Of a DNA stretch of 64,000 nucleotides, positions 3,583-5,213 are shown piece after piece (the first letter of the stretch is position 1; each line of letters begins with the position of its first letter). The stretch is from Treponema sp. (GTDB lineage Bacteria; Spirochaetota; Spirochaetia; Treponematales; Breznakiellaceae). The position numbers and the translations under genes were made by a program. The notes beneath the pieces were generated by a model. That model ran no database searches and was not told the origin of the DNA. It was given only the letters and a program-made list of their open reading frames with translations. The DNA lies in assembly GCA_031254315.1 (NCBI GenBank), contig JAIRUQ010000071.1:1-64000 (forward strand). The letters run 5' to 3'.

Positions 3583-3689
3583 GGGATATTGTGTTAAAAC
3601 ACATAATATTGAATAAAATCCTTATATATGATGTTAGGCAACATTTATACTGAAATAGTTGCAAAATGAAAAAAATGTATTTTTTGCTA

Positions 3690-3718
3690 TTGACAAAAGT
3701 ATAGATACACACTATAAA
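3690..3718 (+). promoter_or_regulatory. Sigma-70-type promoter for the lipoprotein gene
   Basis: TTGACA at 3690-3695 and TATAAA at 3713-3718 are separated by exactly 17 bases, near-consensus, with the ATG 32 bases downstream. Confidence 0.75.
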
Positions 3719-3750
3719 TTGAAATAGTGTTATATTTTTTGGGGTGTTTT

Positions 3751-4527
3751 ATGAAGAAGATTTTTATTATCGTACTTGTTAGTTTTACCTTTTTTTCATG
3801 TGTTTCTGGCTCAACAAGCTCCCCGAGTCTCGATTATTCACAAAGAATCATAATAAATAGCCTCCCAGAAAGTACCGAAACAGAGAAATACATTGAATAT
3901 GAAAATGGTTTCATAACTGTCCAAATAAATAGAGCAATCTATTATAAATTTAACGATGAACCTTTTAATGCATTTAATCTTATAAATATATATTATAATA
4001 AATATGGGGAGCCTTATTATCGAAGAGAGGCTACTATACGTAAATATTTAAATATTAACAACAGAACAGTTGAATGGTCAATAATTAGTTTAACCCCAGA
4101 AACTGCGATCGCAACATATGAAGCGGAACCTTTCTTTTCACTTATAAAAGAAGGTATTGCTTCATTTAAAATTACAGTTGGAGAAATTGAAACAACAATA
4201 AATACAACAATTCAAATGCTACCATTTGGAGTTAATGCAACTTATGATAATTTAATAGAAATACTGGGATTTCCAAATAAAGAAAGTAGGGGAAGTGCTG
4301 TATGGCCAAGTGACACAAAAGTAGATTTTAGTTCTTATACTACAACTCGTAGAGGTCAGTCTATAAGCGTTACACATTTACATTATGATAGATATCCTAA
4401 TGTAATATTTGCATTTATTAATACCAGAAACAGTGGGACGGTCTTACAAGATGGTCGGATTACCTATGATAATCAATTTAGACTAATACAATCTAATATT
4501 AATAATGATTTAAGACCAAAAGATTAG
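3751..4527 (+). CDS. AT-rich predicted lipoprotein, unknown function
   Basis: A 258-residue protein with a lipoprotein signal: MKK, a hydrophobic run, then the lipobox FFSC with the acylated cysteine at residue 17. It is expected to be anchored on the periplasmic or outer-membrane face. The mature part is rich in N, Y, I and T, with no family I recognise. The start is the ATG after GGGGTG; an upstream in-frame ATG lacks such a site and would put charged and hydrophobic residues ahead of the signal. The gene has its own near-consensus promoter and sits inside what looks like an integron cassette. Its base composition differs strongly from purA upstream and from the aromatic operon, consistent with recent acquisition. 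Confidence 0.8.
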   Translation: MKKIFIIVLVSFTFFSCVSGSTSSPSLDYSQRIIINSLPESTETEKYIEYENGFITVQINRAIYYKFNDEPFNAFNLINIYYNKYGEPYYRREATIRKYLNINNRTVEWSIISLTPETAIATYEAEPFFSLIKEGIASFKITVGEIETTINTTIQMLPFGVNATYDNLIEILGFPNKESRGSAVWPSDTKVDFSSYTTTRRGQSISVTHLHYDRYPNVIFAFINTRNSGTVLQDGRITYDNQFRLIQSNINNDLRPKD

Positions 4528-4589
4528 GAATAATATTAAGTATGAATATAATACTAATACTAATACTTTATAAAAGCATCACAAACGTC

Positions 4590-4632
4590 GCCTAACAAAC
4601 GGTAAATGCTTACCGCCTTTCAGCGGTTAGGG
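4590..4632 (+). repeat. attC-like recombination site
   Basis: GCCTAAC at 4590-4596 (R''-like) and GTTAGGG at 4626-4632 (R'-like) enclose the inverted repeat CGGTAA/TTACCG. An alternative hairpin ACCGC/GCGGT overlaps it. Folding resembles an integron attC hairpin, but the site is shorter than usual and the unpaired spacers are unequal (3 and 10 bases). The remainder of the gene-free stretch to 4855 holds no gene I recognise. Confidence 0.45.
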
Positions 4633-4855
4633 TTGCATTTTTGCTAGGTCAACCTGTCACTTAGTTCTTTCTCGTTCCTACATTAAAACTCCACCACATT
4701 GTAAGTCTCTTGGTTCCCGTCTGGCAAAATTATTGCAAGCGGAACATAACTCCACGGAAAAACGATGTAAGACCCTATCTTCCCATGGAAATTTCACGGT
4801 AAAAAAACAAAGTAACGTAAAGCATAAAAATAATACACAAAAAGATTTTGACCTA

Positions 4856-4884
4856 TTGACTAAAGCTTCAAATTCAGTTATAGT
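4856..4884 (+). promoter_or_regulatory. Promoter for the antitoxin gene
   Basis: TTGACT (4856-4861) and TATAGT (4879-4884) are 17 bases apart, and the ATG of the antitoxin lies 18 bases beyond. In such systems the antitoxin usually represses this site. Confidence 0.65.
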
Positions 4885-4902
4885 TATATCCAAGAGGTGT
4901 TT

Positions 4903-5142
4903 ATGGCAGTTGCTACTATAAATTTAGCATTCGATGATGATTTAATTAGGCAAATTGACTCGATCGCAAATAATGAATCCCTTACTAGAACTGATTTAAT
5001 ATATAATTCTGTAAAGATGTATATTAACCGCAAGCAAAAATTGCAGGAATTATACGCTTATGGAGAAAGTGTTGCATTAAAAAATAATTTTACGGAAGAA
5101 GATATAATGGAAGAAATAAAGAATTATAGAAACAATCAATGA
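4903..5142 (+). CDS. Ribbon-helix-helix antitoxin-like protein
   Basis: A 79-residue protein. The N-terminal part (VATINLAFDDDLIRQIDSIA followed by NNESLTRTDLIYNSV) has the ribbon-helix-helix pattern of CopG/VapB-type DNA-binding antitoxins, and the acidic C-terminus (TEEDIMEEIKNYR) fits a toxin-binding tail. The ATG at 4903 follows AGAGGTG; a GTG at 4897 is possible but sits inside that ribosome site. Its TGA overlaps the ATG of a short ORF that looks like the start of a PIN-domain toxin cut off after about 14 residues. The antitoxin is therefore probably orphaned here. Confidence 0.75.
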   Translation: MAVATINLAFDDDLIRQIDSIANNESLTRTDLIYNSVKMYINRKQKLQELYAYGESVALKNNFTEEDIMEEIKNYRNNQ

Positions 5143-5213
5143 AAATAACGCTGGATTCAAATATTTTTGTGTCTTCATATAACCTAAAAGCGTATTACAT
5201 CCACGCCTACTGA
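5139..5213 (+). pseudogene. Truncated PIN/VapC-type toxin remnant
   Basis: Starting in ATGA overlap with the antitoxin stop, this frame reads MKITLDSNIFVSS, the usual opening of a PIN-domain ribonuclease with its first catalytic aspartate (D6), then turns into unrelated sequence and stops after 24 residues. The rest of the PIN domain is absent. The break coincides with the 3' end of the radical SAM gene on the other strand, so a rearrangement or insertion probably removed the toxin body. Confidence 0.6.

Follow-up and report, generated by a model that had tools for sequence, protein, structure and literature searches.

A decayed gene cassette in a treponeme genome and integron-like arrays headed by recombinases lacking the I2 insertion

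How a single integron-type gene cassette might come to lie between two chromosomal genes with no integrase beside it is the question raised by a locus of a Treponema sp. The window analysed here is a stretch of 64,000 nucleotides (contig 109, bases 1 to 64000, of a 3.1-Mb assembly), and it comes from a MAG with 5.85% contamination, the MAGs compared with it being fragmented assemblies. A sequence-only reading of the window had proposed an intact lone cassette carrying one lipoprotein gene. Judged from its sequence, the segment is an integron-type gene cassette despite a decayed attC, and it has the following features.

3633 to 3644, forward strand: cassette start on the R' box side, G^TTAGGCAACAT; an identical 12-mer begins an intact cassette of contig C30
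3690 to 3718, forward strand: cassette-internal promoter TTGACA-N17-TATAAA, from the sequence
3751 to 4527, forward strand: AT-rich orphan lipoprotein gene, an ORF of 258 aa; signal peptide with ...FFSC lipobox read by eye
4584 to 4702, forward strand: left part of the attC (R'', L'', first hairpin, central stretch), matched by an attC HMM
4585 to 4596, forward strand: R'' box ACGTCGCCTAAC; the 12-mer also terminates the intact C30 cassette
4601 to 4609, forward strand: L'' box GGTAAATGC; an intact attC of contig C27 has the identical L''
4626 to 4632, forward strand: GTTAGGG, an internal attC stretch and no boundary, aligned to internal GCTCGGG or GCTAGGG of intact sites
4703 to 4826, forward strand: presumed decayed right attC half, inferred from the weak collinear remnants AACGATGTAAGACC (4761) and AACGTAAAGC; the right end of the cassette has no fixed position

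The GTTAGGC that opens the segment was found at 3633–3639, one base to the left of where the sequence-only reading had placed it, and the GCCTAAC and GTTAGGG that it named are present at 4590–4596 and 4626–4632. The start of the segment after G^TT is complementary to its own R'' (GTTAGGCAACAT / ACGTCGCCTAAC). Each of these two 12-mers occurs once in the window (expected 0.005 and 0.002), and together they are the exact two ends of one intact array cassette elsewhere in the same genome, on C30. Given that both are shared with an intact cassette, the ends of the window's cassette are beyond chance. The proposed assignment to the integron type was borne out by this own-end complementarity and by the cassette's own promoter, which is near consensus as had been described, and the single AT-rich lipoprotein gene was likewise recovered as one ORF. 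The lipoprotein ORF matched no Pfam family and had no relatives among 39 related genomes.

We built an attC HMM from 13 sites, with the window's own site excluded. On the 64-kb window it matched 4584–4702 in one piece as positions 1–110 of 186 (E = 3.7e-8), corresponding to the left 60% of an attC family of approximately 190 nt. This was the only attC match in the window; a CALIN comprises at least two attC without a nearby integrase. A second attC HMM recovered the window site at 9.1e-8 and gave no further match in 159 kb of control loci. The HMM alignment sets GTTAGGG, which is one substitution from the GCTAGGG of sister sites, opposite the internal stretch gcggctcGgG. In an alignment with eight intact sites, the window continues past GTTAGGG with GCGGTTAGGGTT...GCTAGGTC...CTCCACCACATT, collinear with the sites of C27 and of G010. 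The match through 4702 thus makes GTTAGGG internal, and its earlier designation as right boundary and R' box does not stand. The 43-nt attC that would run from GCCTAAC to GTTAGGG was rejected, its hairpin (z = −1.3 and −1.4) being little better than shuffles. We also dropped a right end near GCTAGGTC (4643), a motif that is internal in the sister sites.

Past 4702 there was no significant attC match, and positions 4638–4840 taken alone matched attC sites at chance level; the extent of the decayed half is therefore a reading of one collinear alignment. The whole window site folds at z = −0.8, compared with −9.5 and −6.0 for intact sites, and of a complete attC (R'', L'', L', R' and hairpin fold) the left 110 of 186 positions are present. 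Given this fold value and the unrecognisable sequence from 4703 onward, we consider the attC decayed and not part of an intact cassette. The empty site that had been predicted (...ATGATG joined to TTAGGGTTGC) is consequently without basis, and, with the recognisable L'/R' half gone, the cassette should no longer be excisable. It is highly probable that 3633 to about 4826 is a decayed (fossil) cassette of an integron-like system native to the genus.

To the right of this segment lie three further features.

4856 to 4884, forward strand: promoter-like TTGACT-N17-TATAGT ahead of the next ORF, from the sequence
4897 to 5142, forward strand: small intact RHH-antitoxin-like ORF of 81 aa, named by eye
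5139 to 5213, forward strand: PIN-toxin-like ORF, MKITLDSNIFVSSYN..., ending after 24 codons; family named by eye

The RHH-antitoxin-like ORF had no Pfam match, and the PIN-like ORF breaks off at a radical-SAM gene; the toxin-like ORF is thus cut short while its antitoxin-like partner is intact. The promoter-like motif, the RHH-like ORF and the PIN-like fragment are probably the remnant of a second cassette. Inspection by eye of the sequence left of 3633 revealed no attC right half or attI-like sequence. Among loci of the neighbouring genes from relatives, a set with no same-species genome, none had the gene order of the window, and the flanking genes were nowhere found together.

A BLAST search with the right end of the cassette led to related palindromes on other contigs of the same genome. 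Several cassettes lie on contig C30, where the attC sites measure about 190 nt and read GTCGCCTAAC-ACAC-GGTATACG...CGTATACC-TTTTCGC-GTTAGGCGAC. On contig C52 the recombinase gene is followed by a G^TT junction and then by a first cassette, which starts with GTTATGCGAA and ends in TTCGCATAAC ahead of its attC. About 15 contigs have copies or fragments of attC; many of these are situated at the end of a contig, and some are incomplete or decayed. At least two of the apparently live arrays, on contigs other than that of the window, are headed by a related tyrosine recombinase, so that the description of the cassette as lacking an integrase holds for the window but not for the genome, in which two related recombinases head arrays. 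The junction of the first cassette is G^TT, with a stretch common to C30 and C52, from which no general attI motif was derived. Several truncated or decayed attC sites were also seen on contigs C119, C59, C70 and C37 (loci L133, L136, L137 and L140), and cassette decay seems to be common in this genome. Contigs C52 and C74 (L033 and L035) are similar but not identical and carry the same queD-like gene, which may mean that the MAG mixes strains or that a duplication has occurred.

We then examined loci from a genome scan, comprising 51 from Treponema or other spirochaetes, for which sample codes suggest termite guts as the source, and 29 from Paenibacillus, Saccharibacillus, Cohnella, Bacteroidota and Chloroflexi. 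Linkage was counted only for loci with at least 1 kb of downstream sequence. The recombinase gene was followed by attC on its own strand in 17 of 31 treponeme loci, with 28 downstream and 4 upstream sites, and in 19 of 21 loci outside the treponemes. The remaining 14 treponeme recombinases had no attC there, and not all members of the family therefore head arrays. Cassette arrays in the same orientation and ending in attC were found in L143, L171, L196, L205, L212, L228 and others; L198 departs from this usual layout, its downstream attC sites being on the opposite strand. I2-less recombinases head arrays in Paenibacillaceae (L205, L212, L203, L208 and L215) and in Bacteroidota (L226 and L228). 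The order in Saccharibacillus sp. JS10, for example, is recombinase, G^TT, a NUDIX-like gene (named by eye), attC and the next cassette.

Treponeme cassettes lying between intact sites (n = 31) had starts and ends complementary over 5.9 nt beyond GTT, versus 2.6 nt for shuffled partners. For cassettes of the other phyla (n = 59), own-end complementarity was 4.2 versus 1.2 nt, above all 2000 shuffles; their site sequences differ, as in TAACATAATATTCACG...CGTGAATACAGGAACGTTA, and the boundary rule is unchanged. Site counts for Paenibacillaceae depend on the R-box filter, which was loosened after a first, strict result had undercounted, and the boundary statistic with shuffled partners is independent of the choice of filter. 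Among treponeme cassettes, 39% had promoter-like motifs within their first 150 nt, compared with 5.7% in shuffles.

A search with TIGR02249 found no IntI above the cut-off, and matches in two pieces only, in 25 genomes of the genus including the present one; the 11 array-bearing genomes likewise had none above the cut-off. The array recombinases match Pfam PF00589, and the catalytic-type residues are invariant. An alignment with canonical IntI of the same order shows the genus proteins to be without the block IHEAD...WQW, the insertion I2 of approximately 31 residues found in integron integrases. Nearly all of the roughly 75 relatives measured, including every measurable array-linked recombinase, have 23 residues between KGxKxR and WxF, versus 54 in 7 of 7 canonical IntI. 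From these sequences, a class of recombinases without I2 appears well supported. The nearest solved structures by fold were V. cholerae IntI4 and XerA, on the basis of a moderate-confidence model (pLDDT 75, pTM 0.47) that served fold matching only; by sequence they were the XerC-like 4A8E and then IntI4. A PADLOC search gave no match. In a recombinase tree, IntI formed one clade (100/100) and the array-linked I2-less genes were scattered across the treponeme clade, so that the linkage of recombinase and array looks old there; the order of IntI and the I2-less genes is unresolved in this tree, in which the Xer branches are long, and the tree does not decide between gain and loss of I2. Residues 1–120 of the treponeme recombinase encoded at L033:759-1943 and of its relatives form a conserved, beta-rich NH2-terminal extension ahead of the SAM-like domain; it corresponds to no Pfam family, is absent from canonical IntI and is seemingly present in some Paenibacillaceae. 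This extension might take over part of the role of I2.

The attC sites follow the plan R''–4 nt–L''–hairpins–L'–about 7 nt–R', with a length of approximately 190 nt, or about 80 nt in some. Although R boxes vary among cassettes, those of any one cassette remain complementary; the L boxes co-vary as well (8.1 nt versus 4.7 nt with swapped partners), and both facts suggest that the site is recognised in its folded form. In most sites the L stem is unbroken, with an exact 7-nt complement in 49 of 57, whereas in the attC of a relative with canonical IntI one base bulges in this stem. The joint lack of I2 and of an extra-helical L-stem base in the same systems is coherent, but the place of the extra-helical bases might be taken by a conserved base located just within L'. 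The ends of the 31 treponeme cassettes match over about 10 nt, nearly always followed by one mismatch (A at the start versus G) and then a renewed match; the recurrent A/G position is possibly a conserved A.C mismatch in the folded site.

Intact copies consist of a tyrosine recombinase gene, an attI-like site with G^TT and an array of cassettes on the same strand. The first bases of a cassette (GTTANNNGNN) complement its own R'', and a free circle would thereby rebuild a near-perfect site. Recombination would join attI to a folded attC, with the crossover at G^TT; both this activity of the I2-less system and its single-stranded DNA mechanism are what we infer from the sequences. The lipoprotein cassette, with its own promoter, lies between two chromosomal genes; its route of arrival there is likewise deduced.

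Other explanations of the window differ greatly in their probability. That chance palindromes mimic a cassette is hardly conceivable: single 7-mer matches are each weak, as this explanation would have it, but the two 12-mers shared with the C30 cassette and the attC HMM matches at E values of about 1e-8 to 1e-7 speak against it. We also regard as very improbable an intact lone cassette that has a 43-nt attC up to G^TTAGGG and occupies a secondary chromosomal site. Its R''- and R'-like boxes do pair in 6 of 7 bases and enclose an inner stem of 6 bp; against it, the fold is no better than that of shuffles, the family HMM continues past GTTAGGG, and sister sites carry GCTAGGG or GCTCGGG internally at this position. 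A more open matter is whether the same decayed cassette is the stump of a longer array rather than a single attG-like insertion that later decayed. The layout of the promoter, RHH-like ORF and truncated PIN-like ORF resembles that of a second cassette, and decayed fragments of attC abound in this genome, but by eye no attC right half or attI-like sequence lies left of 3633 and no second R'' survives; the chances of such a stump are slightly below even.

For the wider system, the alternative is that the I2-less recombinases are bystanders and that a canonical IntI located elsewhere, lost or in another cell moves the arrays. The 14 of 31 treponeme loci without a nearby array are in keeping with this notion, as is the description of the insertion as essential in PMC7790495 and PMC8138268. 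We nevertheless judge it unlikely, given that the order of recombinase, G^TT and array is constant in three phyla, that no IntI exceeded the cut-off in the 25 plus 11 genomes, and that the attC sites are unlike the bulged IntI type. We instead favor, with a probability of about 0.72, a branch of integrons in Spirochaetota, Bacillota (Paenibacillaceae) and Bacteroidota that works with integrases which never had or have lost the I2 helix and with an unbulged attC L stem.

Compared with the chromosomal integrons of canonical IntI, such as those of Treponema denticola and the V. cholerae superintegron, the present systems are alike in having a recombinase, an attI-like site and same-strand arrays, as well as palindromic attC sites with R and L boxes, a G^TT crossover and complementary cassette ends. 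They differ in that the recombinase lacks the I2 of about 31 residues and has an NH2-terminal extension, that the L stem has no bulged base as in T. denticola-type attC, that the array follows the recombinase gene and shares its strand, and that cassettes often carry their own promoter. They are therefore not integrons by the strict definition, which calls for an IntI with I2, but are integron-like in anatomy, and they look like a separate branch of integrons. The window cassette resembles a CALIN in that no integrase adjoins it, but it has one decayed attC only and recombinases exist elsewhere in the genome. It shares with cassettes at secondary (attG-type) sites the presence of one cassette at a chromosomal GTT and a left flank in which no attI-like sequence was noticed; its right junction, in contrast, is not preserved, and the insertion reaction is unreadable.

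I2 has been described as a requirement for capturing cassettes and as the innovation that underlies integron integrases, docking extra-helical bases in canonical integrons (PMC7790495), and the extra domain distinguishes IntI from other recombinases (PMC9024848). Within the portion of Smyshlyaev et al. 2021 (PMC8138268) drawn on here, the insertion is described as not fully conserved and yet essential for integron function, and insertion-less members of the integron-like simple tyrosine recombinases are not tied to attC arrays. The Treponema integrons previously described are based on IntI, with their gain dated after the split of the termite-gut species (PMC3607928), and Firmicutes have been credited with a single complete integron and scattered CALIN (PMC9024848). 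We found no description of I2-less integrons in the literature searched, a search outside which preprints and most subscription journals lay.

The window cassette alone is a modest finding, a fossil that points to a larger system. If that system is as proposed, cassettes could be captured without I2, and such systems would escape any integron finder that depends on the IntI-specific domain. They would represent gene-capture platforms in places from which integrons have been considered almost absent, and could explain some of the CALIN reported in Firmicutes. I2-less arrays in three phyla, including Gram-positive bacteria, would also open the origin of single-strand recombination to direct testing.
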